Assembly: GCA_001914815.1 (NCBI GenBank)
Contig: MNDG01000165.1
Span: 1 to 34,448 of the forward strand
DNA: 34,448 nucleotides
Reading direction: 5' to 3'
DNA from: Acidobacteriales bacterium 13_2_20CM_55_8
Lineage (GTDB): Bacteria > Acidobacteriota > Terriglobia > Terriglobales > Acidobacteriaceae
Part shown: piece by piece, positions 2-32,195 of the stretch
How positions within the stretch are numbered: position 1 is the first letter of the stretch
Layout of the letters: the number at the start of each line of letters is the position of its first letter
The notes under the pieces: model-generated
What the model saw: only the letters and a program-made list of their open reading frames with translations
Database searches by the model: none
Told to the model about the DNA's origin: nothing
Translations under genes and position numbers: made by a program

Positions 2-2618
2 ACTACCACCGCATCAGGCTCGAAAAAATCGATTCCGATCAATGGCGCCGTCCACATGAACTACGATGGCCGGCGCAATGCGATCACTCTGCACCAAACT
101 GTGCTTCGGACCCCGGCAACTTCCATAATCGCAGATGGAACTATGAGTGAGCGCTCTGAGCTTCGAATTCAGGCGCGAACCGCCAATATAGAAGAATTGT
201 CCACGCTCGCAAATGCGTTACAAGCGGCAAGCACTCCGGCTTCACAATCTGCACCGAAGCCCTTAAGCGTTTCCGGGTCCGCTGTGGTGGACGCTACTGT
301 GCGAGGCCGATTGCAGAGCCCACATGTGAGTGCACAAGTTACCGCGCAAAACTTGCAGGCCGAAGGTAGCCAGTGGCGCAGCCTGCGCATGGTAGTTCAA
401 GCCAGCGCATCGGAACTCGCACTGCAGAACGGCTCGTTGGTCAGCGCACAGCAGGGGCAAGCATCCTTCAATGTGAAGGTTGGCCTGCGGAACTGGTCGT
501 ATGATCCGTCGAATCCAATCGCAGCGACATTGTCAGTGAAGCAAATGTCGCTGGCGCAGTTGCAACAAATTGCACGGCTGCAATATCCGGCTACAGGCGA
601 CCTCTCCGCTGATATCACGTTGCAAGGCTCACAACTCAATCCAGTCGGACGTGGATCGGCGAAGCTGGTGAAAGCCCGTGTATACAACCAGCCCATTCAA
701 ACTCTGACGCTTCAATTCCAAGCAGCGAACGGCGCCGTAAATTCCACCTGGAACGTAAAGACCACCGCAGGTTCGGCGGACGCAAACCTAATTTATTACC
801 CCAAAACCCGGAGTTACGACGTCCGTCTGAATGCGAGTGATGTCGCGCTGGAAAAATTAGAAGCGATTCAGGCCAAGAACCTGGCGGTTAAGGGCACGCT
901 GACGGCTTCCGCCAGCGGGAAAGGTACGCTCGATAATCCGCAACTCACCGCGACCGTACAAGTGCCGCAACTTCAGTTTCAGCAGAGCGTGGTGACTGGA
1001 GTTAAGGCTCAGTTGAATGTCGCCAACCATCGCGCGGATGCAACACTTAATTCGAATATCCAGCAGTCATCTCTGCAGGCAAAGGCGAACGTGAATCTCG
1101 ATGGACGCGACTATTACACGACCGCGACCATCGACACCACAGCTCTACCCGTTACCGCTTTGCTGGCGGTATATGTACCGACACTCCCTACTGGGTTGCA
1201 AGGCCAGATGGAGCTGCATGTCTCCCTGAAAGGACCATTGAAAGACAGGTCACGCATGGAAGCTCATCTCGTGATTCCGACTTTGAACGCGACTTATGAG
1301 TCCGTCCAGATCGCCAATGCGGGTCCTATACGCGTCGACTACGCGAACTATGTTCTGTCTCTCCAACCGAGTGAACTTAGGGGGACTGGAACGTCGATTC
1401 GCTTTGCGGGACAAGTTCCTTTGCGCGGCGCAGCCGCGATGAGCCTCAATGCGCAAGGGAACATTAATCTGCGTTTGTTGCGCCTGGTCAGTCCCGATGT
1501 CCGCAGCTCAGGAACCATGACGCTTGACATTCGAACTGCCGGCAATACGAGTAACCCGCAGGTTACAGGAACAATCCGTGTGCAGAACGCCGCCCTTTCT
1601 ACCGCGACCATGCCCTTTGGTCTGGAACAAATGAATGGACTATTGAATTTGAATAAGGATCAAGTCCAGATCAGCACTCTTACCGCACAAATGGGAGGCG
1701 GGCAGGTTACGGCCGGAGGCTTCATAACCTACCGGCCCGACGTGCAGTTCAATCTTGTGCTCAACGGGAATTTGGTTCGGCTGCGTTATCCCGAGGGGCT
1801 GCGCTCAGTGTTGAACAGCAGTCTTACGCTCACTGGCAACCGCCAGGCGGCCAGGCTGGACGGAAGAGTGCTGGTTGACAGTCTCTCGTTTACTCAGGAT
1901 TTTGATCTGGCGAATTTCATGAATCAGTTTACCGGGGACACCGCGCCCCCATCGGGGGAGCGCTTCGCCGACAATCTGAACCTTAACATCAGCGTGCAAT
2001 CGACAGAGCAGCTCTCCGCCGTGAGTTCGCAGGTCAGTGTTGAAGGGCAGGCCAACGTGCGGGTGATTGGAACAGCCTCCAATCCAGTGATCGTGGGCAG
2101 AGCGGATTTGACTTCGGGCGAAATTTTCTTCATGAAGAGGCGCTACGAATTAGAGCGCGGCATTATTAACTTCACCAGGACTGATCGCACTGCGCCCGAG
2201 GTGAACCTGCTGATAACGACAAGTTTCGGATCCTCCGTTACCTCCTGTGGACGTTATTAACCTGATCGCACGCGGGCAAACCACGGAAGAGACCACTCCG
2301 ACCAGTTTGGGCGCGAACTCGATCCTGGCACAAGGTTTGGCAAGTCAGGTCGGCACGCAGATTGGTAAGCTGGCGGGCATCTCCAGCCTGACCATTGATC
2401 CCTTAATTGGCGGTGATAACAGAAATCCCTCCGCGCGCATTGCCATACAGCAGCGCGTGACGAAAGATTTTATCTTTACTTTTTCGACCGATGTAACCTC
2501 GGCGCAGCGGGAAGTCATCCAACTGGAATATCAGCTCAACCGGCGATGGTCGGTGAGCGCAACCCGAGATGAAAATGGCGGCGTGGCATTCGATGCAAAG
2601 TTTCACAAGGTTTTTTAG
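2..2618 (+). pseudogene. tamB: TamB-like translocation/assembly protein, C-terminal part, 5' partial and apparently disrupted near 2225-2250 (ORFs 2..2260 and 2247..2618)
   Basis: Open from position 2. AsmA/TamB-like beta-repeat composition, with C-terminal motifs '...GEIFFMKRRYELERGIINFTRTDRTAPEVNLLITTS' and 'DPPLPPVDVINLIARGQTTEE...' lying in two different frames with about 20 expected residues missing between them. Confidence 0.8.
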
Positions 2619-2624
2619 AGCCGA

Positions 2625-4343
2625 ATGTTGCGCGGAATACACAAGGACGTTGAGCAAATGTCAGCGGTCGAAACGGATTTGTGGGTTTTTCGGGATGGAC
2701 GCAATTCCGTGTCGAGTGCGGGCCTGTTGGATGAACTGCACACCTCTCTGAAGAAGCTGCTGGATTCTCCACGACCGCACATTCGTGAGTACTGCCTTAA
2801 TGCATTGATCCGTGCAGGTGAATTGGAATCCGCACTCGCGGATGCTGAGTCTCTCGTCAGATCAGCTTTAGCAGCGCTGACCGATGCACTGGCATTCACA
2901 CTGCTTAGCGGCAATTTGAGTTCCGTCCGGAGACTTACTGGCAGCCTGAGCAATCTCTCGCTTCCCCAAATCGTTGAAACTTCGCCACCCGAGGGATTTT
3001 CCTATTACGCTCTGCATCCTCTGGATTTCGCAGACGCCGGGATGCGGCTCGCGAATCCCCCGCGACCCGTGGCAGTGATCGGAATTCGCAGCATTGGAAC
3101 TACTCTGAGCGCAGTGGTTGCGGCAACGCTACGCGGAACCGGGTCTTCCGTGGAACGGATTACGGTGAGGCCAAGCGGCCATCCTTATAGCCGAATCACG
3201 CAATTCACTTCCGAGCATATCCGGTGGATCGAAAAACAAAAAGAACAGAGCGCCATGTTCCTTGTGGTGGACGAGGGCCCAGGAAGAAGTGGTTCAAGCT
3301 TTCTATCGGTGGGCGAGGCACTGATTGACGCTGGCGTGCCAGCGGCGCAACTCACATTAATAGGAAGCCACGAACCCGACCTTAACCTGCTTTGTGCCGA
3401 TGATGCTGCGCGGCGATGGAAGGCTTTTCATTTTCGGGCGGCCGCGTCACGCGTTGATTCGCGCTTTTCCGATCATGTGTTTGTGGGAGCCGGGGAATGG
3501 CGGCGCAAACTGCTGCCGGAAGCTGCAATGTGGCCCGCCTGCTGGCCACGGATGGAGCGAGTTAAATTTCTGTCGCGAGATGGGACGAGGCTGTACAAGT
3601 TCGAGGGCTTAGGACCGATGGGAGAGGCAGTGCAGCAACGTTCGCGACTGGTGGACCAGGCTGGCTTCGGGTGCAGCGTTACGGATGCAGGCGACGGGTT
3701 CTCCTGTTATGCGGTCGCAGAGGCTACGCCAATGACGGCCGAAGAAGTAGACCCAATCGTCCTGGAACGAATGGCGCAATACTGCGCTTTCCGCGCCGCC
3801 GAGTTCGGTGCCGGTGGGGTGCCTGAACCTCTAGCGGAGATGTTGCGTTTCAATATTTCACGCGAGTTCCAGATCGAATTGAATTTGAACCTGGACGCAC
3901 TGCAACCCTCCCGCCTGGTTGTGGTTGACGGCCGCATGCAACCGCATGAATGGCTGCGCACAAAAGACGGAATTCTGCTCAAGACGGACGCCTCCACCCA
4001 CGGTGACGATCATTTCTTTCCGGGGCCCACCGACATCGCATGGGATCTGGGGGGAGTTACTGTGGAATGGAACCTCCATCCTGCGGCGCTGGAATTTTTG
4101 CTTGCCCGCTTCGCCCGGCTGACCGGCAATGACCTGCGTCGAACATTGCCCGCCTTCATGCTTGCTTACAGCGTATTCCGGCTGGCCTGGTGCAAGATGG
4201 CGCTGAGCACAGTGACGGATTCCTCTGAGCAGCTTCGTCTGCGAACTGCTTATCGCCGATATCGGAATGTAACGGTAAGACAAATGTCTCAGCTGGGAAT
4301 CAGAGTTCGAGCAGCATCCAGAGAGCAGGCAACCCTGGTTTAG
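2625..4343 (+). CDS. Hypothetical protein; phosphoribosyltransferase-like region fused to a kinase-like (APH-fold-like) region
   Basis: 572 aa ORF starting 7 nt after the tamB stop. 'VIGIRSIGTTLSAVVAA...FLVVDEGPGRSGSSFLSVGEAL' resembles a PRTase PRPP-binding loop; 'LYKFEGLGPMGEAVQQRSRLVDQAGFG...LVVVDGRMQPHEWLRTKDGILLKTDASTHGDDHFFPGPTDIAWDLGG' resembles an APH-like kinase core. An alternative start is at 2658. Confidence 0.75.
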   Translation: MLRGIHKDVEQMSAVETDLWVFRDGRNSVSSAGLLDELHTSLKKLLDSPRPHIREYCLNALIRAGELESALADAESLVRSALAALTDALAFTLLSGNLSSVRRLTGSLSNLSLPQIVETSPPEGFSYYALHPLDFADAGMRLANPPRPVAVIGIRSIGTTLSAVVAATLRGTGSSVERITVRPSGHPYSRITQFTSEHIRWIEKQKEQSAMFLVVDEGPGRSGSSFLSVGEALIDAGVPAAQLTLIGSHEPDLNLLCADDAARRWKAFHFRAAASRVDSRFSDHVFVGAGEWRRKLLPEAAMWPACWPRMERVKFLSRDGTRLYKFEGLGPMGEAVQQRSRLVDQAGFGCSVTDAGDGFSCYAVAEATPMTAEEVDPIVLERMAQYCAFRAAEFGAGGVPEPLAEMLRFNISREFQIELNLNLDALQPSRLVVVDGRMQPHEWLRTKDGILLKTDASTHGDDHFFPGPTDIAWDLGGVTVEWNLHPAALEFLLARFARLTGNDLRRTLPAFMLAYSVFRLAWCKMALSTVTDSSEQLRLRTAYRRYRNVTVRQMSQLGIRVRAASREQATLV

Positions 4344-7206: not shown

Positions 7207-10134
7207 CTACTTTCCACTTTCAACCGTTAGCAGTGCGACGGGAAAATTTTCCAGTAGAGACGACGCTCGGAGGAATCCCGATTCCCCGGCTTTTTCTGGG
7301 CGCAGGATTTCTGCGGTAAATGCGTTGCGGTACCTTGATTTTGAAAGCTCTGGTGGCAGTTCTATCCCGGTATCTTCCCACAAACCAGACTGAGCGGGCG
7401 AAGTTGCTCCGTTCACCAGCAAGCGCGCGCACATTCTAGGCACTGCGACGATCGCGGCAGAGCTTCCCTCCCGCCGGGCGAACGCGACGAGATGGTTAGC
7501 TTTGGCACCCAGGACGGCTAAGGGCAAGTAATCTCCCTGCTGAAAAAGAGATGCTTGTTGCTTGCGCAAATTCAGAGTTTTCCAGGTCAGATAAAACTTA
7601 GCCCGGCCATCGTTGTCGTCCTTCCCCAAACTGTCTGTCAGCTCTCGAGCGAGTGCCTTCACTCGCTCGCACGAGTCCGCGCCTGCCATCAATTCCTTCA
7701 AGCAACGCTGGCGGCGAGCGTAATCAACGGCGCGGCGATTGTCGGGATCGACCAGGCTAAGATCCCAGAGTTCATTGCCTTGGTAGATGTCAGGCACTCC
7801 GGGAGCTGTGAGCTTGATGAGGACTTGGGAAAGACTGTTGAATCTTCCGAGTCGCGCTACATATCGCTGAAACGGTACAAAATCTTCGAGAAAAGACTTT
7901 GCGCCGCTCGATGACAGAATTGCTTTCACGAACGCAGCCACGGCGGCTTCATATTCGGAGTTCGGATTCGCCCAACTGGTTCTTTGCTTGGCTTCGCGCA
8001 CCGCCTTCAACATGTACTGGTTGATTCGGTCGTAGAACTGGGGCCCCGCTATTGTTTCCTGCGGCGGCCAGGTCCCAATCAGGGTTTGATAAAGCAGGTA
8101 TTCGTCGTTTCTTGAAGGAGCTTCGGAGCCATCCACCATCCGCTTTTTATCTGCGTTCGTCTCCCGCCAGCGTCGGACGTTTCTTCTCCACAGAGCTGGG
8201 GTTTCAGAGAGCACATCAATGCGGGCGCGAACATCCTCGGAACGCTTGGTATCGTGGGTTGAAGTGTCCAGGAGGCTGTGGGGCCAGGCTTTTGCGCGCT
8301 GCTGGATTTCACGATGGAATTCATCCGGCGAAACACCGAATCTCTTGGGATCTCCTCCCACTTCGTTTAGCGAAACCAGACGGTTATAGCGATAGAAACT
8401 GGTGTCCTCCATACCTTTTGCCATCACCGCGCTGGTGAACTGTTGAAACTTCATGGCAAATCGGACGACTGACTGCCGGTAAGAACCCGTCTGCCCTGCT
8501 CCTTTTTGCGTGAGCAACACTTCTCGAATGAAATCGAAGACAGTGACATCAGCGATTGCACTTTGTCGCTTAGCCGATTGGACAGCTTCTTCGATATAGC
8601 TACGATCTGGGTCTGAGACATGAGTTTCGGTGATGTAGGTGCGATAAACCGGGAAATTGGCGACGATTTCGCTCAACGCATCCCGCAGACTGTTCAGAGT
8701 GAAGTCGCAGGTGTGACGTTCAGCCAGAGCGATACGACTGAGAATGTTTGCCAGCACATTCAGCTCGCTAGCCAGTGCACTGTGCATCACAATTTTCTTG
8801 GATTGATAGAGCAAGGTGTCAAAGTCGCATCGTTGGCCGAGGAAGGCACGATAAACGCGGTCCATTTTAGAAACGGAGTCCGGATCGACAAACAGCCCAT
8901 TCACCAGATTGGCAAAGTCATAACCCGTGGTGCCGTAAATTGGCCAATCTTCCGGTAGCCGCTCCACACTGGCAAGAATTTTTTCAATCACGACATAGAC
9001 TGATTTCGAATTGCATTCCTTGTTCAGGGATGGACAGTCCTGCTGGCATTGCAATCGATGGAAATATTGCGCGGGATTGTAGAGGCCGTCGGGATGATCG
9101 ATGCGCAGGCCATCCACTTTTCCGTCGCGGATGAGTTGCAGGACAAAATGGTGTGTAGCATCGAAGACCGCTTGGTTCTCCATTCGTAGACCGGCCAGGT
9201 CGTTGATGTCGAAAAAGCGGCGATAATTGATGTCGTCCGCGGCCACCCGCCAATATGCCAGCCGATAAGCTTGAGCTTTGATGAGCTCATGCAGAGCGTC
9301 GAAACTGCTGGGGTCGCCGGGCGTGCCATTGATCTTTCGCACGTTCTCGTCGATGAACTGGGATGTCTCAGCAGAACGCAAGCACAACGCCGCCAGGCGG
9401 CGCTTGTGAATTTCTTTATCGCGTATACGTTCTGCTTTTTTGTCAGGAGCGGTTTCCTGGCGACCGGGCAGATGATTGAAGGCCGAAATCAGACTTTGCA
9501 ATTCTAAAAAGTCGGCGTGCGAAGCGCCCAAACTCTGTTCAAGCCGCTCCAGACCACTTGCCCGCACGCGAGTATATTCTTTGGGATCCACGGGAAAACG
9601 GTGCTGATGATAGAAGATGCTGAACTCGCCTTTCTCTTTATCGAAAGTCAACTTCAGTTCGCCCAGATCGAGGATGCTGCCGTACTGATCTCCCAAGACT
9701 GGAACCAAAACTTTTCCTTGGAGTTCATCCTTCAGCGGCTGCCAGTCGATATCGAAGAAGTCGGCATAACTGGAGGCTTCTCCATTTTCCAGCACGTCTA
9801 ACCACCAGCCGTTGTCACTCCCCATCACTCCCATGTGATTGGGCACGATGTCCAGGATGTGTCCCATGCCGTGCTGGCGTAGCGCGGCCACGAAATTGTC
9901 GAAGTCTTCTGTGCTGCCGATCTCAGGATTCAGCAGGTTGTGATCGATGATGTCGTAGCCATGAGTGCTTCCCGGACGCGCTCTGAGATATGGAGAGGCA
10001 TAACAGTGAGTGATTCCCAGGGCGGCCAGATAAGGAACCAATTGGGTCGCATCGGCAAAGGTGAAATCGCGGTTGAATTGCAGACGGTACGTGGCCAGCG
10101 GAATTTGCGGCGAACTCATGGATGAAGAAACCAT
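7207..10134 (-). CDS. treY: Malto-oligosyltrehalose synthase
   Basis: 975 aa; 'IPLATYRLQFNRDFTFADATQLVPYLAALGITHCYASPYLRARPGSTHGYDI', 'VDGLRIDHPDGLYNP', 'GMEDTSFYRYNRLVSLNEVGG', 'PGVPDIYQGNELWDLSLVDPDNRRAVD'. Confidence 0.97.
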   Translation of the reverse strand: MVSSSMSSPQIPLATYRLQFNRDFTFADATQLVPYLAALGITHCYASPYLRARPGSTHGYDIIDHNLLNPEIGSTEDFDNFVAALRQHGMGHILDIVPNHMGVMGSDNGWWLDVLENGEASSYADFFDIDWQPLKDELQGKVLVPVLGDQYGSILDLGELKLTFDKEKGEFSIFYHQHRFPVDPKEYTRVRASGLERLEQSLGASHADFLELQSLISAFNHLPGRQETAPDKKAERIRDKEIHKRRLAALCLRSAETSQFIDENVRKINGTPGDPSSFDALHELIKAQAYRLAYWRVAADDINYRRFFDINDLAGLRMENQAVFDATHHFVLQLIRDGKVDGLRIDHPDGLYNPAQYFHRLQCQQDCPSLNKECNSKSVYVVIEKILASVERLPEDWPIYGTTGYDFANLVNGLFVDPDSVSKMDRVYRAFLGQRCDFDTLLYQSKKIVMHSALASELNVLANILSRIALAERHTCDFTLNSLRDALSEIVANFPVYRTYITETHVSDPDRSYIEEAVQSAKRQSAIADVTVFDFIREVLLTQKGAGQTGSYRQSVVRFAMKFQQFTSAVMAKGMEDTSFYRYNRLVSLNEVGGDPKRFGVSPDEFHREIQQRAKAWPHSLLDTSTHDTKRSEDVRARIDVLSETPALWRRNVRRWRETNADKKRMVDGSEAPSRNDEYLLYQTLIGTWPPQETIAGPQFYDRINQYMLKAVREAKQRTSWANPNSEYEAAVAAFVKAILSSSGAKSFLEDFVPFQRYVARLGRFNSLSQVLIKLTAPGVPDIYQGNELWDLSLVDPDNRRAVDYARRQRCLKELMAGADSCERVKALARELTDSLGKDDNDGRAKFYLTWKTLNLRKQQASLFQQGDYLPLAVLGAKANHLVAFARREGSSAAIVAVPRMCARLLVNGATSPAQSGLWEDTGIELPPELSKSRYRNAFTAEILRPEKAGESGFLRASSLLENFPVALLTVESGK

Positions 10135-11934
10135 ACGACGGACCAGGGCGGCATCTTGCCAGTATCCAGTTTTTCAGTCATGCCTTCGATAGTCGAGTAG
10201 ATCAAGCGCCTTGTGGGAGCAGCCGGCGGCGTTACAGAATCCGGACTGAGATTAGCTATCAAGCGTAGGGTCACTTCGCCGGCAAGTTTCCAGTCTACTG
10301 CCAGGCTATTGCTTTCTCCGAGCGTGAAGCTGCCAGATCGTCCACTCAAATTGCGAAGATGAGGAACGATTGTGTCACGTCTGAGCGTCAGTAGATCATG
10401 ATAGAAGGTAAGCCAAAATTGGTGAGTGGGCTCATCCAATGATCTCCAATCCAACTTCGACCTTGTGAAAGTCGTTTCTGCATTAGGATCGGGTAGCGAA
10501 GCCCTGGTATTGGGCGAACTGAATCTCTCGAATCGGGCGAACTCATTGCGTCGTCCGTCGGTGACTGCTGCGGCTAATTCGCCATCAAAATCGCAAAAAA
10601 ACAAAAACGAAGTATCGGCCCCGAATTCTTCTCCCATAAAAAGCAGCGGCGGCGACGGCGCCAGCAGAAGAATTGCCAGCGCAGCTTTGAGTGCTTTGGG
10701 TTCCGCGAGTTTGTTGATTCGTTCGCCATAGGCACGGTTTCCCACCTGGTCATGATTTTGCAAGAATGAGACAAACGAGGTCGGCGGTAAATCGCGAGAA
10801 GGTTCTCCGCGTGGAGCGTTGTTTCGATGGCGGGATCGCTCACCTTGATAGCTGAAGCCTTCGGCCAAGCATCGACCCAGGTGACGGATCGGCTGTTCGG
10901 AATAGTCGCAATAATAGCCGTCGGCCTCGCCCGTGATCAGCACATGTAGAGCATGATGGATATCATCATTCCATTGCGCGTCGTATAGTCTCGGAGTTTT
11001 GCGTTGGTCGCCCTCGGCCGTAGCGCCGGCGTCCCGTCGGCTCTCAAGAGATGTCAGATAATGAGCAGCGTTCTGATCATTCTCCAGCACTAAATGGATG
11101 AGCCGATCGACGCCTAACTTTGCGCGTATGGCTTCGGCCAACTCTGTGAGTATGTCAGGCTTCAATTCATCACTCTTCCAGCCAGTAAAGCGCATTGTGA
11201 ATAAAGAAATCTCGTACAGCGCGACTTCCAGGACCGTCAAAATTGATGGCATTGCCCCAGGGAGTGCGATGACGAGCAGTAAAAAACTCCGGAGCGTAAG
11301 TACGCAAGTAATTCCCTTCCGGCCCAAAGTGGTTGTATACCACATCCAAAAACACCATTAAGCCCTTGCGGTGTGCCGCCTGAATCAGCCGTTTCAGATC
11401 GTCGGGGTGGCCGTAGCAATTGTCAGGAGCGAACGGCAACACGGCGTCGTATCCCCAGTTGCGCGCTCCGGCGAAGTCGGCGATTGGCATTAGCTCAACC
11501 GTGGTGATTCCGACGTCGGCTAGATAATCGAGACGTTGTTCCGCTGCAGCGAACGTGCCGTCCGGAGTGAAGGTGCCAATATGCAGTTCGTAAATGACAG
11601 CTTCTTCCCAGGGCCGCCCGCGCCAATGTTCATCCTGCCAATCGAAAGCAGCGGGATCGATTACTTCGCTCGGTCCATGAACGTCGGAAGGCTGAAATCT
11701 CGACGCAGGATCTGGAACCTTGGTTTGCCCATTGATTTCAAACTGGTATCGACTGCCTGCGGGGGCATGGATGACAAGTTCGAGCCAGCCGTCTTCAAGT
11801 TTCGATAGGGCTCGCGGCTCCTGATTGGCGAGGCAGAGGTCGACTCGTTGCGCTTTCGGAGCCCAGAGGCGGAATCGTACGTTTCCGTCATCGAGGCACT
11901 CCGCCCCGAAGGGCATCGGATGTCTACGCCTCAT
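10116..11934 (-). pseudogene. treZ: Malto-oligosyltrehalose trehalohydrolase, apparently disrupted near 11170-11185 (ORFs 11170..11934 and 10116..~11195)
   Basis: N-terminal ORF ends '...VRDFFIHNALYWLEE*'; the tail continues in another frame as 'SDELKPDILTELAEAIRAKLG...LVLENDQNAAHYL...FLQNHDQVGNRAYGERI...LFMGEEFG'. The canonical segment between them, of the 'YRFDGLRLDAVHAI' type, is absent. Confidence 0.88.
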
Positions 11935-23358: not shown

Positions 23359-24573
23359 TCACGTGGAGTAGTCGGCGTTGATTCGAACGTAATCAGCAGT
23401 CAAATCAGTGGTCAGAAACTTTGTATTAGCGTGACCGCGCTGAAGGATAATACGAACATCAGAGACGGGCTTAGCTAAGTGACGGTGTGCTTTTCTCTCA
23501 GCGAACGGGCAACTTGCGCCATTGCGACATACCAATTGTGAACCGATAAAAATATTCACAGTGTCGGGCTTGATCGCCACCCCGGAAGCTCCAACGGCAG
23601 CCAGGATGCGTCCCCAGTTCGGATCAGCTCCGGCCCAGGCTGTCTTTACCAATAAGGAGTGTGCGACGGCTCGAGCCACTCGCAGCGCTTCTTCTCGACT
23701 ACTGGCCTGCTCAACCGAAAGCCGTATCACATGTTGCACCCCTTCACCATCCGACACGATCTGCTCCGCTAGAGACTGACAGACTTCGCCAAGCGCGTCC
23801 GCGAACTGCTTGCGTGAGCCATCGTTCAAGCGACCTCCGCTCTGGCCGGAGGCAAGCAGCAATACAGTGTCATTCGTGGAAGTGTCACCGTCCACCGAAA
23901 TGCAATTGAAGGTTTGTTCGCACGTACCTCGCAGAAGCCGTTTCAAGTCTGCAGGAGTAGCTACAGCATCGGCGAACAAATATACGAGCATAGTCGCGAG
24001 CTGCGGATGAATCATGCCGGAGCCCTTCGCGACACCCAATACGGTGATAGTTTCCTTCCCTGAGCGAAAACGAACCGAAGCCAGCTTGGGTCGCTTGTCG
24101 GTAGTCATGATGGCGCGTACAAATTGATCGAGATGCTTCCTGGTTGTGCCTCGTTCCGATACTAGAGTGGCGAGAGTAGGGAGAATCTTTTCAGTTGGTA
24201 GAGGAACTCCGATGATGCCGGTTGAGGAAGGAAATACTTCTTCAGAGGGCAAGCCGAGCAATTGTCCGGTGGCCCCGCAAATTCGCTGACAAGACCGGTA
24301 GGCATGATTTCCAGTCGCGCAATTGGCATTCCCAGAGTTGACAATCACGGCGCGTACTCGCCCCTTGGTAGCAGCCAAAGCAGCACGACCGATTTCTACA
24401 GGGGCAGCAACGACTCGGTTCTTTGTAAAAACAGCAGCAGCAGTGGTTCTAGGCGCGGCCTCGACCAACCCTAGATCTAGCCTGCCGCTTGCCTTGATTC
24501 CGGCACAAGCAGCGGAAAAACTGAATCCTTGCGGCAAATAAATTTTGCCTGGTGAACGCCGAGGCAGGGTCAT
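23359..24573 (-). CDS. argJ: Bifunctional glutamate N-acetyltransferase / ornithine acetyltransferase
   Basis: 'IVNSGNANCATG', 'GVAKGSGMIHPQLATMLVYLFADA', 'NCISVDGDTSTNDTVLLLASG', 'VKTAWAGADPNWGRILAAVGASG'. Confidence 0.96.
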   Translation of the reverse strand: MTLPRRSPGKIYLPQGFSFSAACAGIKASGRLDLGLVEAAPRTTAAAVFTKNRVVAAPVEIGRAALAATKGRVRAVIVNSGNANCATGNHAYRSCQRICGATGQLLGLPSEEVFPSSTGIIGVPLPTEKILPTLATLVSERGTTRKHLDQFVRAIMTTDKRPKLASVRFRSGKETITVLGVAKGSGMIHPQLATMLVYLFADAVATPADLKRLLRGTCEQTFNCISVDGDTSTNDTVLLLASGQSGGRLNDGSRKQFADALGEVCQSLAEQIVSDGEGVQHVIRLSVEQASSREEALRVARAVAHSLLVKTAWAGADPNWGRILAAVGASGVAIKPDTVNIFIGSQLVCRNGASCPFAERKAHRHLAKPVSDVRIILQRGHANTKFLTTDLTADYVRINADYST

Positions 24574-25082
24574 GCCTGGAGTTTCACCAACCAGCTTGTT
24601 AGCGGCTCCGGCAGAATGGCAAACTTGGGAAGCTCACCACGAACCATAGCCACTTCGTCGCAGCAATGAAGGCGCGGACAATTACAGCAGTCTTTGTGGA
24701 TTTTGTCGGGCAGATCTTCGCGCTGTGCCATAGCAAACCCCATTCTTGCGAAGAACTCTGGGATTCGGGTGAAGAGACAAATACAGCTCACTCCATGTTT
24801 TTTCGCCTGGACCAGCAAAGCTTTCACTAGACGTCTCCCGCCAGCGCAACCTTGATATAGAGGACTGACGGTGATCGAGCGAATTTCCGCTAAATGCGTC
24901 CCGTACAGATGAAGCGCGCCGCAACCGATGATCTCATCGCCTTCTTCTAAGACGACAAAGTCGCGCACATTCTCGCAGATTTCTGCCAAGGAGCGCGGCA
25001 GCAGTGTGCCGTCCCCGGAATAGGTTGCGATCAAGTCATGGATTCGCTGCGCATCGGGCAGGATGGCTTCACGCGTGCGCAT
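24570..25082 (-). CDS. argA: GNAT N-acetyltransferase, ArgA-like N-acetylglutamate synthase
   Basis: 'MRTREAILPDAQRIHDLIATYSGDGTLLPRSLAEICENVRDFVVLEEGDEIIGCGALHLYGTHLAEIRSITVSPLYQGCAGGRRLVKALL'; lies between argH and argJ. Start moved to the ATG at 25082, which overlaps the argH end. Confidence 0.85.
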   Translation of the reverse strand: MRTREAILPDAQRIHDLIATYSGDGTLLPRSLAEICENVRDFVVLEEGDEIIGCGALHLYGTHLAEIRSITVSPLYQGCAGGRRLVKALLVQAKKHGVSCICLFTRIPEFFARMGFAMAQREDLPDKIHKDCCNCPRLHCCDEVAMVRGELPKFAILPEPLTSWLVKLQA

Positions 25083-26472
25083 GCGCTTCCTCGCGTATGA
25101 ATTCGATCCGACGCTTTGCATCTGCAACCGCGCGCTGCACTTGTCCCGGGGCCGTACCGCCCGGAACATCATGAAGAGCCAGCACCGACGTAAGGTCGAG
25201 GCAGGAATAGAAATCTTCATCGAACAAGGGGTTGAGCTGGCGCAGTTCCTGCACTGATAGATCCTGAAGCTCGCAACTTTTTTCGAGGCACAACTGAACG
25301 GCCTTTCCGACCTGCTCATGGGCGAGGCGAAAAGGAACTCCGCGTTGCACCAGGTAGGTGGCCGCAGCCCAGGCATTCATGAATCCCGACTGCGCAGCTT
25401 CCCGCATGCGATCGAGATTGAACTCCACTGCCTTCATCCAATTCGTAACCAGGGGAATCAGCGCAAGCACGGTTTCAGCGGCGTCAAATAGCGGCTCCTG
25501 GGTTTCTTGCAGGTCCTTGTTATATGCCAGCGGCAGGCCCTTCAGAGTAACGGCTAGCGCAGTTGCGGCACCGATAATGCGGGCAGCTTTACCGCGCGTA
25601 AGTTCCAGTAAATCTGGATTTTTCTTCTGAGGCATGGCGCTGCTGCCGGTGGAGTACGCTTCGGGCAAGCGCACAAAGTCAAACTCCTGCGAGGAAAACA
25701 GAATCATCTCCTCGGCCCAGCGGCTTAGGTGCAGTCCAACCATTGAAAGTGCATTCACGAATTCCAGAACAAAATCGCGGTCGCCGGTTGCATCGATGCT
25801 ATTGAGCGTCGGAGCATCGAAACCCAGGTCGATTGCCATAGCGCGACGATCCAGCGGCAGCGTGGTTCCCGCAACCGCGCCGGAGCCGAGCGGGCAGAAA
25901 TTCAGTCGCTTCCGGCAATCTACAAGCCTGTCGGCATCGCGGATAAACATCTCCACATAAGCCAGCAACCAGTGGGACATTAAAACCGGCTCAGCGCGCT
26001 GCAGATGGGTGTAGGCAGGCATGGCTGCGTTTCCGGCACGCTGGGCACCTTCGACTAGCGCATCGAGACACTCCGCCAACTCCGCTCGCAACTGATCGAT
26101 GCAGACTCGGACATATAACCGAAGATCGGTGGCAATTTGCTCGTTGCGGCTGCGGCCGCTGTGGAGTTTGTATCCCGTGTCGCCGATAAGATGGACAAGA
26201 TTCTTCTCTACGAAGTGATGAACATCTTCAGCTTCGGAGTCCTCAAGAAACGCTGGAGAGACGGCCGCCTGCTCGGCAATCCGCTCCAGTCCTTGCAGAA
26301 TTGAAATGAGCTCGCTCGAAGACAGGATGCCCGCATTCGCCAGCGCGCGAGCATGGGCGCTGCTCGCGGCCAACTCGTGAGTTAACAATCGCCGGTCGAA
26401 GTCAAAGGACCGCTGCCAGCGTTCAAAGTCAGAATCGGGCGGCTGGCGGAAGCGTCCGGACCACATCTTCAT
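25069..26472 (-). CDS. argH: Argininosuccinate lyase
   Basis: 'MWSGRFRQPPDSDFERWQRSFDFDRRL', 'DTGYKLHSGRSRNEQIATDLRLY', 'GSSAMPQKKNPDLLELTRGK'. Confidence 0.97.
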   Translation of the reverse strand: MKMWSGRFRQPPDSDFERWQRSFDFDRRLLTHELAASSAHARALANAGILSSSELISILQGLERIAEQAAVSPAFLEDSEAEDVHHFVEKNLVHLIGDTGYKLHSGRSRNEQIATDLRLYVRVCIDQLRAELAECLDALVEGAQRAGNAAMPAYTHLQRAEPVLMSHWLLAYVEMFIRDADRLVDCRKRLNFCPLGSGAVAGTTLPLDRRAMAIDLGFDAPTLNSIDATGDRDFVLEFVNALSMVGLHLSRWAEEMILFSSQEFDFVRLPEAYSTGSSAMPQKKNPDLLELTRGKAARIIGAATALAVTLKGLPLAYNKDLQETQEPLFDAAETVLALIPLVTNWMKAVEFNLDRMREAAQSGFMNAWAAATYLVQRGVPFRLAHEQVGKAVQLCLEKSCELQDLSVQELRQLNPLFDEDFYSCLDLTSVLALHDVPGGTAPGQVQRAVADAKRRIEFIREEAHAHA

Positions 26473-27674
26473 CTCGCAATCTCCATGCGCGCACGGGCAC
26501 GCGAGCGAGCCGGCAAGCCGAGGATACGAATGAATCCCTCGGCATCCTTCTGGTCGTAATTCTCGCCCATGGTGAATCCGGCCAGGTCGGTACGGTACAA
26601 CGAATACTCGGACTCGCGGCCCACGACTGCGACGTTTCCCTTATACAAAGAAAGCTGCACTGAGCCAGTGATATCTTTCTGCGTAATTTCCACAAAGGCA
26701 TCGAGTGCTTCCCGCAGTGGCGTAAACCACAGGCCGAAGTAAACCAGTTCGGCATACTTCAAACCGACGTGCTGCTTGAAGTGCGCGACCTCACGCTCCA
26801 GGCACAAGGCCTCCAGCTCACGATGAGCCGCGATCAGCAGAGTTCCTCCGGGAGTCTCGTAGCATCCGCGAGATTTAATTCCTACGAAGCGATTTTCCAC
26901 CAGATCCACACGCCCGATCGCATTGCGAGCGCCAATCTCGTTCAACAACTCAACGAGAGACACCGGATCGAGCTTCATGCCATTGACCGCGATTGGAATT
27001 CCTCTCTCAAAACCGATGGCCACCTGCTCAGCTTGATCAGGCGCTTCTTGCGGTGAACGAGTAATTTGCCACGTGCTATCTAACGGCGGATTCCCGGCGT
27101 CTTCCAGTTCCCCTCCCTCATGGCTGATGTGCCAAAGATTTCGGTCGCGACTGTGGATCTTCTCGCGGCTGGCGGCGACCGGAATTCCATGCTGCTCAGC
27201 GTAGTCGAGGCAATCTTCTCGTGACTTCAGAGTCCACTCACGCCAGGGCGCGATGACTTTGAGCTCGGGGGCAAGCGACTGATAGGCCAGCTCGAATCTG
27301 ACTTGGTCGTTGCCTTTGCCGGTGCATCCATGAGCAACGGCGGTCGCGCCTTCGCGGTTCGCAACTTCCACTTGGTGTTTGGCGATTACGGGACGGGCCA
27401 GCGATGTCCCCAACAAATACTTGTGTTCGTACACCGCGTCCGCTTGCAATGCACGAAACACGTATTCGGTCAGGAATTCTTCGCGGAGATCCTCCACCAC
27501 TACCTTGCTCGCGCCTGTGGCGTACGCTTTTTCAACCACAGCTTCAAGGTCATCTCCCTGGCCGACATCGCCTACCATAGCGATCACGTCATAGGAATAA
27601 TTTTCCCTCAGCCATGGAATGATGATGGAAGTATCTAAGCCTCCGGAATAAGCAAGGACGACTTTTTCAGGCAT
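26469..27674 (-). CDS. argG: Argininosuccinate synthase
   Basis: 'KVVLAYSGGLDTSIIIPWLRENY', 'AVAHGCTGKGNDQVRFELAYQSLAP', 'RDRNLWHISHEGGELED'. Confidence 0.98.
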   Translation of the reverse strand: MPEKVVLAYSGGLDTSIIIPWLRENYSYDVIAMVGDVGQGDDLEAVVEKAYATGASKVVVEDLREEFLTEYVFRALQADAVYEHKYLLGTSLARPVIAKHQVEVANREGATAVAHGCTGKGNDQVRFELAYQSLAPELKVIAPWREWTLKSREDCLDYAEQHGIPVAASREKIHSRDRNLWHISHEGGELEDAGNPPLDSTWQITRSPQEAPDQAEQVAIGFERGIPIAVNGMKLDPVSLVELLNEIGARNAIGRVDLVENRFVGIKSRGCYETPGGTLLIAAHRELEALCLEREVAHFKQHVGLKYAELVYFGLWFTPLREALDAFVEITQKDITGSVQLSLYKGNVAVVGRESEYSLYRTDLAGFTMGENYDQKDAEGFIRILGLPARSRARARMEIAR

Positions 27675-28680
27675 GGGCGCTCCTAATCTGTAGACGGCTC
27701 ATCTCGCCGCCGAGCAGCAACATGAGAATCGCCTTCTGCACGTGCAAACGATTCTCTGCTTGCTCGAAAACAACCGACTGCTCGGAGTCGATGACCGCAT
27801 CGGTGATCTCCTGGCCGCGATGGGCGGGGAGACAGTGCATAAAAATAGCATGGGATGCCGCGGCCGAAACCAGATCTTCGTTTACTTGATAAGGCTGAAA
27901 GATTTTAGACCGCTCATCGGCCTCGTGTTCGCGACCCATACTTGCCCAAGTGTCGGTGTACACCGCGTCTGCCCCTGCTACCGCATCGTACGGGTCATGG
28001 CAAAGTTCGATTGTGGCGCCGGTCTGGCACGCGATAGCGCGCGCGTCGGCCACAATCTGGGCGTACGGCTCGTAACCAGAGGGAGCAGCGACGCGGATAT
28101 GTGAACCCAAGCTGGCACAAGTAAGCAGCAGCGAATGAGCGACGTTGTTTCCATCGCCGACATAGGCCAGGCAGATGTTTTTCAAATCACCAAATCGCTC
28201 TTGCAGGGTGAAGTAATCCGTCAATCCCTGACAGGGATGTTCGAGATCGCTAAGCGCGTTAATGACCGGAACGCAGGCGTGCTCCGCCATGCCTTCGATG
28301 GTTTGTTGGTCGAAGGTGCGCAACACAATCGCGTTGACCCAGCGCTCAAGATTATGCGCGATGTCGCTAAGCTTTTCTCGCGCATCGATTCGTTCGTGAG
28401 TCTGGTCCATGAAGAACGTCGTTCCGCCCAGGCTGGCCATGCCAGCCTCAAATGTCAGACGCGTGCGCAGAGACGGCTTCTCAAAAAACATGGCCATCTG
28501 TTTTCCGGCCAACGCACCACGAAATTCCGCCGGCAGGGATTTCATCAATCCAGCAAGGTGCAGAACAGCTTCCACCTCTGGTGGATTCAGATCGCGCGTA
28601 GAAACCAAGTCGCGAGACCAGAATCCTTTATTCTCTGGTAAAGCCACGATTTGTGAAGCATTGAATGCCTGACTGTTCAC
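27667..28680 (-). CDS. argF: Ornithine carbamoyltransferase
   Basis: 'FEKPSLRTRLTFEAGMASLGG', 'HPCQGLTDYFTLQERFG', 'FMHCLPAHRGQEITDAVID'; GTG start overlapping the argD stop. Confidence 0.97.
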   Translation of the reverse strand: MNSQAFNASQIVALPENKGFWSRDLVSTRDLNPPEVEAVLHLAGLMKSLPAEFRGALAGKQMAMFFEKPSLRTRLTFEAGMASLGGTTFFMDQTHERIDAREKLSDIAHNLERWVNAIVLRTFDQQTIEGMAEHACVPVINALSDLEHPCQGLTDYFTLQERFGDLKNICLAYVGDGNNVAHSLLLTCASLGSHIRVAAPSGYEPYAQIVADARAIACQTGATIELCHDPYDAVAGADAVYTDTWASMGREHEADERSKIFQPYQVNEDLVSAAASHAIFMHCLPAHRGQEITDAVIDSEQSVVFEQAENRLHVQKAILMLLLGGEMSRLQIRSAHA

Positions 28681-29930
28681 CGCAGGCTCCTTTTTGTGGT
28701 TTTCGCGGCGCGCATCGGCGGTCGCTTCGTCGCGCTTGCGCTTAAGGCCGAATCGAGTGTTCTCACTACTTCATCGACGTGCTTTTTTTGAATGATGTAG
28801 GGCGGCAGGAACCGCAATACTGTTTCCTGTGTCCGATTGATCAGGATTCCCTTTTGCAGCAGCTGTTGAACCACGGCCTTAGCGGTCTCCGCGGAATCCA
28901 ATTCCATGCCGAGCATGAGTCCCAAGCCACGTATTTCGCGAATGAAAACGTGCTTAGTCCGCAAATCTTCCAATCGCGCGCGGAAGTAGTCGCCTACTTC
29001 CCGTATGTGGTCCAGCAATCCATCGAGAGTACGTAGAAATTCGATTGCGACGGCACACGCCAGCGGTCCCCCGCCGAAAGTCGTTCCGTGCATGCCAGGA
29101 TGCATTCCGCTAGCTACCCGGTTTGTGGTAAGCAGCGCCCCCAGCGGCAATCCCGCTGCCAGCGGCTTGGCTACGGTGAGAATGTCCGGTTGTATGCCGT
29201 AGTGCTGGTAGGCAAAGTAGCGTCCGGTGCGACCTAAGCCGCATTGAATTTCATCAAGGATGAGCAGCGCACCGGTGCGGTCCGCCAACGCGCGAGCGAC
29301 TTGGAGGAATTCGGGAGTGAGCGGACGAATTCCACCTTCCCCTTGAATCGTCTCCAGACAAATGGCACAGACGCTGCCGTCGAATTGCCGCTTGAGATCC
29401 TCAACGTCATTAAACGCAACAAAACCGACTCCCGGGACCAGCGGCGTAAAAGGATGACGGTATTTTTCCTGGCCGGTTGTCGCGAGAGAACCGAAGGTGC
29501 GGCCGTGAAATGAATTCTCGAGAGCAAGGAGCCGCCATTTCGCTTTGTGGCCATTGTGATTCTGTGTGCGCGCGTAGGCACGAGCCAACTTGAGCGCGCC
29601 TTCCCAGGCTTCGGTCCCACTGTTGCAGAAAAATGCGCGGTCCAGGCCCGAAATTCTTGTTAGTCGTTTGGCAAGTTCCGCCTGATATGCGTGAAAGAAA
29701 AGATTGGAGACGTGAATCAGCCGGCCTGCTTGCTTTCTTAAAGTGGAGCTGATTGCCGGGTGCGAGTGGCCCAATGCGTTCACACCGATTCCACTGAGAA
29801 AGTCGAGGTAGCGATTGCCGCGCGAATCCCACAAATACAATCCGCGGCCCTTCTCGAACAGTACCTTCTGGCGATCATAGGTCGGTAGCAGCCATTTTTC
29901 TTCGGAACGGATGACGGTAGCAAGGTTCAT
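28677..29930 (-). CDS. argD: Acetylornithine aminotransferase
   Basis: 'YLDFLSGIGVNALGHSHPAI', 'FCNSGTEAWEGALKLARAYA', 'LILDEIQCGLGRTGRYFAYQHYGIQPDILTVAKPLAAGLPLGALL'. ATG at 29930 overlaps the argB stop (TGATG). Confidence 0.95.
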   Translation of the reverse strand: MNLATVIRSEEKWLLPTYDRQKVLFEKGRGLYLWDSRGNRYLDFLSGIGVNALGHSHPAISSTLRKQAGRLIHVSNLFFHAYQAELAKRLTRISGLDRAFFCNSGTEAWEGALKLARAYARTQNHNGHKAKWRLLALENSFHGRTFGSLATTGQEKYRHPFTPLVPGVGFVAFNDVEDLKRQFDGSVCAICLETIQGEGGIRPLTPEFLQVARALADRTGALLILDEIQCGLGRTGRYFAYQHYGIQPDILTVAKPLAAGLPLGALLTTNRVASGMHPGMHGTTFGGGPLACAVAIEFLRTLDGLLDHIREVGDYFRARLEDLRTKHVFIREIRGLGLMLGMELDSAETAKAVVQQLLQKGILINRTQETVLRFLPPYIIQKKHVDEVVRTLDSALSASATKRPPMRAAKTTKRSLR

Positions 29931-30712
29931 CAAGCCGTCACCTCGGTTCCGCATTCCAGTTTGGTGAAGTAAAACTGCGGCAGAATCTCAGCCTGTGTTG
30001 CAGGCAGAATGCGCACTCGGCCTACGCCTTTCTTGAGCGCCTGGCTACAAGCTTCCAGTTTGGGTAACATTCCGCCGCCGACCACGGAAGCTTCGACCAG
30101 CGCAGCCGCTTCGAGAATGTTGAGCCAGGGAATCACGGCACCTTCGGCATTGGTTACGCCCGCTACATCGGTCAGGAAAATTAAGGCGTCGGCGTGGCAT
30201 GCTACAGCACACGCGGATGCCATCTGATCCGCATTGATGTTGTAGTACTCTCCATCCGAACCCAGCGCTACCGATGACATCACGGGGATACCACCCGCGC
30301 TCCAAATGGCTTCGATCCAGCGCGGCTCCGCCCAGGAAATCTCTCCGACAAATCCGAGGTCGTAACCCTCGGTCTGCTTCTTTCGCGCGCGAAATGCCAT
30401 GCCGTCTCCGCCGCACAATCCAACGGCCGGGTGTCCCGCCGCAACAATTCCCGCTACCAGACTCTTATTCACGATGCCCGCCAATACCATCAGCGCCACG
30501 TCACGGGTCTCGGCGTCGGTGATACGCAGCCCATTGACGAAGTCGCTTTCCTTACCCAGCAGCTTCAATGTGCGGGTGAGAGCGGTTCCTCCACCATGAA
30601 CTACTGCAATGCGGTGCCCGTCGCGAGCGAGTTCCACAACTGCGTGAGCGCACTTGTGGAGCGTGGATTTATCCTCGAGCGCAGCGCCGCCGATTTTGAT
30701 CACGATCTTCAC
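29930..30712 (-). CDS. argB: Acetylglutamate kinase
   Basis: 'VIKIGGAALEDKSTLHKCAHAVVELARDGHRIAVVHGGGTALTR', 'YNINADQMASACAVACHADALIFLTDVAGV'. GTG at 30712 has an AGAGGAAGG-like SD and a GTGA overlap with argC; the longer ORF starts at 30736. Confidence 0.94.
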   Translation of the reverse strand: MKIVIKIGGAALEDKSTLHKCAHAVVELARDGHRIAVVHGGGTALTRTLKLLGKESDFVNGLRITDAETRDVALMVLAGIVNKSLVAGIVAAGHPAVGLCGGDGMAFRARKKQTEGYDLGFVGEISWAEPRWIEAIWSAGGIPVMSSVALGSDGEYYNINADQMASACAVACHADALIFLTDVAGVTNAEGAVIPWLNILEAAALVEASVVGGGMLPKLEACSQALKKGVGRVRILPATQAEILPQFYFTKLECGTEVTA

Positions 30713-31752
30713 TGCAGGCCTTCCTCTTCTTTCCACCCGTACATGAGGTTCATGTTTTGCACGGCCTGGCCTGCCGCGCCCTTCAGCAGGTTATCCACGC
30801 AAGACACCAGCACCAGGCGGCGTCCGTCTGCTGCCAGGCAGAAGCCGAGATCGCAGTAATTCGTATGCAGGGAAAACTGGATCTCCGGCAGTTGCGGTGT
30901 AGCGAAGACACGGACCCAGCGCTTGCCAGAATAAAAATCGCGAAAGCAGGACTCGACTTCGGCCGGTTTCATCTCGCGGACAAGATGCACGTAGAGGGTG
31001 GATAAAATTCCCCGCGGTATAGGAAGCAAATGGGGAGTGAAAATCAATTCAGACGTATTCAGCTGTAACTGTTCGAGAATTTCTCCGACGTGCCGGTGCC
31101 CGAATACAGAGTACGCAGAGAGATTATCGGCCACCGAAACAAAGTGTGTGCGTGCAATTGGTTCCTTGCCAGCGCCCGAAACTCCGGATTTCGAGTCAGA
31201 GATGATTCCTTTTTTTCGATCTACGATGCCCGCAGCCAGCAAAGGAGCCAACGCCAGGATGACGGAAGTCGCGTAACACCCGGGATTGGCCACTAATGCC
31301 GCATGCGGAATGCGATCACCATTCAGTTCAGGAAGGCCATAGACCGCTTTCTCGGTGAGTTCGGCTGCGGTCGCGGCATCTTCATCCTGGAAGCCATAGA
31401 TGGCGCGATGCTGAGCCTGTTTCAGCCGCCAGGCGCCGCTCAAGTCAATCACGCGAAGTCCTCGCGCAAGAGCCTCGGGCACCAGCGAGCGCGACGCTTC
31501 GTGCGGAGTGGCGAGAAACAAAAGTTTTGCGTCGTGTTGTTGCAGCGCTGTCCATGAGAAGGGTTGTAGCGCGGGGCATCCATTGCCGGCAAAAGACGGT
31601 GGCATCTGCGCAGAAGTTTCTCCGTTGGTCTCGCCCTCGCGCCGAAGCAGCAAAGGCGTCTCCAGCCGCGGATGATGCAGAAGGAGGCGCGCCAGTTCGC
31701 TGCCGGAATAGCCGGTGGCGCCTATCACAGCGGTCCTGAGTTTGGCCGGCAT
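30709..31752 (-). CDS. argC: N-acetyl-gamma-glutamyl-phosphate reductase
   Basis: 'TAVIGATGYSGSELARLLLHHPRLE', 'VANPGCYATSVILALAPLLAAG', 'SKSGVSGAGKEP'. Confidence 0.97.
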   Translation of the reverse strand: MPAKLRTAVIGATGYSGSELARLLLHHPRLETPLLLRREGETNGETSAQMPPSFAGNGCPALQPFSWTALQQHDAKLLFLATPHEASRSLVPEALARGLRVIDLSGAWRLKQAQHRAIYGFQDEDAATAAELTEKAVYGLPELNGDRIPHAALVANPGCYATSVILALAPLLAAGIVDRKKGIISDSKSGVSGAGKEPIARTHFVSVADNLSAYSVFGHRHVGEILEQLQLNTSELIFTPHLLPIPRGILSTLYVHLVREMKPAEVESCFRDFYSGKRWVRVFATPQLPEIQFSLHTNYCDLGFCLAADGRRLVLVSCVDNLLKGAAGQAVQNMNLMYGWKEEEGLQ

Positions 31753-32195
31753 CAGGCAAGCATCTCGTGGGTGCGTGATGCCAGGCGGCTGGCGGCTCGC
31801 TTATCCGGGCAAACGATCAGAATCGTGTCATCACCGGCGATGGTGCCTACCGCTTCCGGCCAGTCCTCGCCATCCAGAGCCGCGGCCACAGGCTGAGCGC
31901 TGCCAACCGTCGTCTTGATTACGAGCAGATTCTGCGCGGGCCGCACCTCGAGCACAAACTCGCGCACTAATCGCGAGACTGGCGGCAAGGCAGATTCTGA
32001 TGCGGTCTCTCCCTGTGGTTGAGCGTAACCTGTGGCAGTCTTCACTAAACCCAGATCACGGATGTCTCGAGACAAAGTTGCTTGTCCGACTTTGAGGCCG
32101 CGGCGGTTCAAGGCGCGCTGCAACTCTTCCTGGTTTGCGACTGGGCCACGCTCCAACAAATCAAGGATCACCTTCTGTCTCAAAGGCTTGCTCAT
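31752..32195 (-). CDS. argR: Arginine repressor ArgR
   Basis: 'RQKVILDLLERGPVANQEELQRALNRRGLKVGQATLSRDIRDLGLVK...LLVIKTTVGSAQPVAAALDGEDWPEAVGTIAGDDTILIVC'. Confidence 0.96.
   Translation of the reverse strand: MSKPLRQKVILDLLERGPVANQEELQRALNRRGLKVGQATLSRDIRDLGLVKTATGYAQPQGETASESALPPVSRLVREFVLEVRPAQNLLVIKTTVGSAQPVAAALDGEDWPEAVGTIAGDDTILIVCPDKRAASRLASRTHEMLA

Follow-up and report, generated by a model that had tools for sequence, protein, structure and literature searches.

The window, by which we mean the whole 34,448-nucleotide stretch of Acidobacteriales bacterium 13_2_20CM_55_8 that was analysed, encodes at 2625-4343 a fusion of a phosphoribosyltransferase (PRTase) domain with a kinase-fold domain. 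The protein is most likely a two-domain enzyme that uses PRPP, and probably ATP, to modify a glycan or cyclitol intermediate of the TIGR04295/TIGR04290 pathway. Both folds, the conservation of the presumed active sites, and the co-occurrence and co-location of the gene with pathway genes were observed computationally; from these we infer that the enzyme uses PRPP and ATP, in what order its reactions run and what kind of acceptor it modifies. The features referred to below are as follows, with residues numbered from the start of the ORF.

56..2618, + strand: TamB-like (DUF490-type) gene in two frames, cut by the contig start; it ends 7 bases upstream of the ORF and is a single ORF in L038 and L039
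2625..4343, + strand: PRTase-kinase-fold fusion, whole ORF (ORF list, homologues, AlphaFold2 model)
2664..2963, + strand: N-terminal helical region, residues 14-113 (DSSP of the model; alignment; conserved motif AGELExALAD)
2964..3479, + strand: predicted PRTase-fold domain, residues about 114-285 (domain model, Foldseek, PF00156 match of L081, hhalign)
3168..3194, + strand: RPxGHPxxR motif, residues 182-190, in the flexible-loop region of a type I PRTase (conservation)
3264..3302, + strand: putative PRPP loop VVDEGPGRSGSSF, residues 214-226 (conservation; aligns with VVDDHPNTGLT of L081)
3522..4292, + strand: predicted choline-kinase/APH-fold domain, residues about 300-556 (Foldseek match to LicA)
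3564..3599, + strand: N-lobe strands (314-316, 322-326) with K314 and K325, the candidate ATP lysine (conservation)
3927..3953, + strand: candidate catalytic loop DGRMQPHEW, D435 to W443 (conservation)
3981..4067, + strand: candidate metal site K453-x-D455 ... DIAWDLGG ... E481, equivalent of the choline kinases' IDxE...DLA...E (conservation; LicA profile alignment)

That the gene is real and conserved is virtually certain. It forms a single uninterrupted ORF of 572 aa, whose opposite strand contains many stops, and its protein is 79% identical across 569 aa to that of the nearest relative. In the comparison of these two genes dN/dS is ~0.22-0.30, and differences reach 30% at codon position 3 vs 11-12% at the other positions. 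By sequence comparison, the gene is under purifying selection. The homologues, the dN/dS and the third-position bias together confirm the ORF that the original prediction had singled out. The gene is encoded in 24 of the 61 related genomes, and a scan of the collection found it on 10 more named acidobacterial contigs besides that of the nearest relative. Many Acidobacteriota have homologues, and others are borne on plasmids of the alphaproteobacterial genera Sinorhizobium, Ensifer, Azospirillum, Roseomonas and Rhizobium; the plasmid homologues show 29-33% identity, with best matches that cover 94% of the length. As the nearest relative also starts there, translation probably begins at the ATG at 2658 (Met12). 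In one genome (G400; L080:6913-7946) the gene is truncated within the PRTase domain and adjoins a small HAD gene, which is probably due to decay or assembly error.

Scans of the protein against Pfam, NCBIfam and PADLOC matched no family, and it is thus not a known defence protein. Both folds are already known; their fusion, which the original prediction did not recognise as a characterised enzyme, has no family model in these three resources. PDB sequence searches gave no significant match, and a search of a literature library with few subscription journals found no paper describing a PRTase-kinase-fold fusion.

AlphaFold2 modelled the whole protein with high confidence (pLDDT 91.3, pTM 0.90) as a helical N-terminus followed by a type I PRTase domain and a choline-kinase/APH-fold domain. 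The three-part architecture that had been proposed from the sequence (helical N-terminus, PRTase, kinase-like module) therefore holds, and Foldseek matches to both a PRTase fold and a kinase fold support it. All of the motifs on which that proposal was built were located: VVDEGPGRSGSSF at residues 214-226, LYKFEGLGPMGEAVQQR at 323-339 and VVVDGRMQPHEW...KTDASTHGDDHFFPGPTDIAWDLGG at 432-478. In an alignment of 28-31 homologues, which has 30-38 invariant positions, the acidic pair of the putative PRPP loop and the kinase Lys, Asp and Asp are invariant or almost so; a wider set of 24 sequences was also aligned.

We have very little doubt about the PRTase fold. Modelled on their own, residues 100-312 (pLDDT 76.8) had the Giardia guanine PRTase as best Foldseek match (E 8.6e-5), followed by APRT, HGPRT, UPRT, OPRT and PyrR, in a list that also contains Rossmann-like non-PRTases with similar scores. 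The Pfam scan gave no match of the window protein to PF00156 (Pribosyltran) at E<=10. L081 and L082, divergent homologues from Acidobacteriota that are 960-970 aa long, align across both domains and bear in addition a C-terminal HAD hydrolase (PF08282). L081 matches PF00156 above the cut-off (E 1.8e-7, 31.0 vs 26.3 bits), and its sequence VVDDHPNTGLT sits where the window protein has VVDEGPGRSGSS. Profile-profile comparison by hhalign with true PRTases encoded in the same genome gave E 4.7e-4 with a matching register. Among the 28-31 aligned homologues, R182, P183, G185 and R190 of the flexible-loop motif and D216, E217, G218, P219, G220, S222, G223 and S224 of the PRPP loop are invariant, E123 and Y128 are nearly so, and R155 is conserved within GIRSIGTTLSA; R182-P183 is also invariant in the wider set (24/24). 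The acidic pair D216-E217 comes directly after a hydrophobic strand, as it does in type I PRTases. PRPP is a probable substrate.

A kinase fold in the C-terminal half is, on the basis of the model, highly probable. Foldseek of the whole model returned LicA (4r7b) with E 3.4e-7, prob 1.00 and TM-target 0.52, and human ChoK was also matched. At the sequence level, PF01636 and PF01633 had no Pfam match for the window protein or among the 28 members scanned, hhalign of the kinase half with APH proteins gave a non-significant E of 0.41 in a plausible register, and a profile match to LicA, aligned at DP.WDLA...E, was likewise non-significant (E 1.4). The assignment of the kinase half therefore rests on the fold and the order of the motifs. 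K314, D435, K453, D455, H459, D474 (in DIAWDLGG or DIAWDLAG) and E481 are invariant, and K325, E442 and W443 nearly invariant. The candidate loop DGRMQPHEW departs from the HxDxxxxN catalytic loop, as it has the Asp and no His, with Glu at +7 replacing Asn at +5. This departure and the missing kinase match would suit a pseudo-kinase, in which the PRTase half alone is catalytic and the kinase-fold half binds acceptor or nucleotide without phosphoryl transfer. However, loss of some catalytic residues would then be expected, whereas Acidobacteriota and alphaproteobacteria alike retain K325, D435, E442, K453, D455 and D474, most of which are also kept in the distant L081 and L082. These two have the classical DFE, and their metal motif VDFE...DPAYDLA is close to the choline-kinase form. 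We regard a pseudo-kinase as rather unlikely and slightly favor an active kinase domain.

Around the fusion, the window has TamB, YtxH-like, response regulator, trehalose and arginine genes. These were considered as partners and rejected, as they are kept with the gene in close relatives alone, which was taken as synteny. The TamB-like gene is split (734 + 123 aa) around 2247-2260, likely by a frameshift or assembly error; relatives L038 and L039 have a single TamB-like ORF of 1311-1335 aa in the same place. A second probable frameshift affects treZ (malto-oligosyltrehalose trehalohydrolase), which lies between treY and glgX and appears at 10116-11934 as overlapping ORFs of 409 and 254 aa, and the minus strand at 23359-32195 carries, as read from the sequence, a run of arginine biosynthesis genes (argJ, argH, argG, argF, argD, argB, argC, argR). 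In relatives, an SH3-type lipoprotein and a 76-aa small protein lie upstream of the gene, and both were rejected as core partners. The small protein is directly upstream in 12 acidobacterial genomes and was never found apart from the gene, and copies at L042:8876-9118, L046:8906-9136 and L048:8440-8667 have two YFIDxxGxV repeats. It was not found in the window's genome and is therefore not core.

A survey of the neighbourhoods of homologues, as the original prediction had suggested, revealed a sugar-pathway cluster with glycosyltransferases, epimerases, TIGR04290 and TIGR04295. The gene is inside this cluster in Roseomonas, Sinorhizobium, Ensifer, Azospirillum argentinense and Rhizobium. In Acidobacteriota it is physically linked at L031, L037, L078 and L079, within or beside a glycosyltransferase/TIGR04295 or TIGR04290 cluster; linkage was also seen at L085 and L091-L093, and the homologue on pSymB of Sinorhizobium meliloti R14 occupies L091:18001-19749. 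At most alphaproteobacterial loci examined, the cluster contains an inositol-3-phosphate synthase, a histidine phosphatase, a beta-xylosidase-like gene, four glycosyltransferases, two epimerases, a UDP-glucuronate decarboxylase, a Gfo/Idh oxidoreductase, a zinc dehydrogenase and the methyltransferase TIGR04290; among these clusters, that of A. argentinense also holds the B12 radical SAM protein TIGR04295. UDP-xylose synthase and inositol-3-phosphate synthase are often found in clusters with the gene. In Azospirillum ramasamyi and A. lipoferum the gene is present without neighbouring cluster genes. The cluster is not adjacent to the gene in the window's genome, where it is located on contig C20 (L098, G000:C20:8700-25122) and the gene on C167; it comprises four glycosyltransferase-like genes, TIGR04295, two epimerases, a beta-xylosidase-like gene and TIGR04290.

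Association with the cluster was also evident from the distribution of the gene among genomes. TIGR04295 was found in 20 of the 61 relatives, all 20 of which carry the gene, and the four remaining gene carriers are incomplete assemblies. When only good-quality genomes were considered (n=46), the gene and TIGR04295 were present in the same 15 and both were missing from the other 31 (Fisher 2e-12), and within the window's family alone 8 of 29 genomes have both and 21 neither (p 2e-7); these tests ignore shared ancestry, and the presence pattern is patchy inside one family. TIGR04290 is present in 15/15 gene-bearing vs 1/31 gene-less good-quality genomes. In a phylum-wide sample (n=396), it scored above cut-off in 8 genomes and covered 4 of the 6 with a full-length gene (p 1e-6, likewise uncorrected for ancestry). 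The gene occurs without TIGR04290 above cut-off in G181 and G377, and TIGR04290 occurs without the gene in G002, G250, G334, G358 and G404. Inositol-3-phosphate synthase was dropped as co-occurrence evidence, nearly all relatives carrying it. We consider a role in the TIGR04295/TIGR04290 pathway very likely. The pathway is conserved and appears to build a small modified glycoside.

In the mechanism that we propose, the type I PRTase domain would bind PRPP and Mg2+ and transfer the 5-phosphoribosyl group, so that a sugar or a cyclitol (perhaps inositol) which the cluster makes as an intermediate would become O-phosphoribosylated, and the choline-kinase/APH-fold domain, probably passing phosphate from ATP, would phosphorylate the same compound or a precursor. 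The sequential transfer of phosphoribosyl and phosphate groups suggested in the original prediction may occur. In the Hib capsule polymerase Bcs3 (PMC10299916) and in dual-domain gPRT-PRP proteins (PMC11127046), a PRTase-like domain is established as carrying out PRPP-dependent O-ribofuranosylation, after which a HAD phosphatase acts. Our proposal is based on this precedent and on the phosphatases that are near the gene in several lineages. A small HAD gene was found at L037, L078 and L079, its start overlapping the stop of the gene (ATGA) at L037, and a histidine phosphatase is near the gene at alphaproteobacterial loci. The three-domain homologues L081:4388-7300 and L082:4579-7467, PRTase + kinase-fold + HAD fusions, lie near polysaccharide-type genes; a plasmid search with a divergent three-domain homologue gave no match. 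The window's genome (G000) and nearly all gene-bearing close relatives lack both the small HAD and the histidine phosphatase of the cluster type, and we rejected either as an obligatory partner in this clade. A dephosphorylation step is therefore not general, and the phosphate may be kept, or a general phosphatase may take it off. That a sugar or cyclitol is O-ribosylated is plausible though tentative, and we hold the account as a whole, O-phosphoribosylation by a PRTase + kinase-fold enzyme within the TIGR04295/TIGR04290 pathway, to be about evenly balanced.

Alternatively, the kinase may act first, with a cyclitol or sugar being phosphorylated before the PRTase exchanges phosphoribosyl or transfers it from PRPP onto the phosphate, or uses this reaction for activating the sugar. 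Inositol-3-phosphate synthase and histidine phosphatase immediately adjoin the gene in alphaproteobacteria, and the choline-kinase fold matched by Foldseek, which acts on small alcohols, would suit such an order. However, inositol synthase is general in the window's family and does not track the gene, and we think this order of events improbable.

A nucleoside-like or nucleotide-derived product or signal was also weighed. In Ter operons, a PRTase, phosphotransferase and phosphatase logic has been proposed for nucleoside-like metabolites. On the other hand, no Pfam PRTase family, those of Ter PRTases included, was matched at E<=1 by the 28 members scanned, and the neighbours are sugar enzymes rather than base, Ter or effector genes. 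Glycosyltransferases and sugar epimerases accompany the gene, as do a B12 radical SAM enzyme and a methyltransferase, and such partners indicate an oligosaccharide-type product. The nucleotide-derived signalling product suggested in the original prediction is thus not supported; we consider it very unlikely, and less likely than glycan or cyclitol modification.

With a role in the TIGR04295/TIGR04290 pathway, an unnamed protein family would gain a pathway, and a missing PRPP-linked step would be supplied for the TIGR04290/TIGR04295 cluster, which spans Acidobacteriota to rhizobia and has no product in the literature searched. More speculatively, the bifunctional PRPP/ATP enzyme may represent a new O-phosphoribosyltransferase class and a core, hitherto unrecognised step of a widespread pathway for a B12-radical-SAM-modified, inositol- and pentose-containing oligosaccharide, which symbionts like Sinorhizobium meliloti possess. 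With the whole cluster on its pSymB, S. meliloti offers an experimentally tractable host in which the pathway can be tested directly.

The protein can be compared with four known systems. With the TIGR04290/TIGR04295 cluster, whose families are hypothetical equivalogs, the gene is co-located or co-occurs; that pathway is without a characterised product, the protein itself was listed as a hypothetical protein, and our search of a literature library with few subscription journals found no paper that names TIGR04290 or TIGR04295. With type I PRTases (PF00156; GPRT, APRT, HGPRT, OPRT, PyrR) the predicted domain has in common the fold, the arrangement of beta-strand and PRPP loop, the acidic pair and the Gly-rich first strand, whereas its loop, DEGPGxSGSS, is one residue longer than their DDxxxTGxT, and it has no HMM match and is fused to a kinase-fold domain. 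In choline/ethanolamine kinases and the APH family (LicA, ChoK) the fold is the one predicted here, and the Lys, the catalytic Asp, the metal Asp and DLA...E follow one another as in the window protein, but the latter has no significant sequence similarity to them and has a DGRMxPxEW loop in place of HxDxxxxN. The Hib Bcs3 CriT-CrpP and Klebsiella gPRT-PRP proteins likewise have a PRTase-like domain proposed to make O-linked ribofuranose-5-phosphate in a glycan pathway. PDB sequence searches found no significant similarity to solved CriT/gPRT members, and a dedicated HAD phosphatase like theirs is absent from the window's genome. Some homologues of the window protein do have a HAD partner, as CriT-CrpP and gPRT-PRP do, while in the window protein itself a kinase-fold partner replaces the fused HAD phosphatase.
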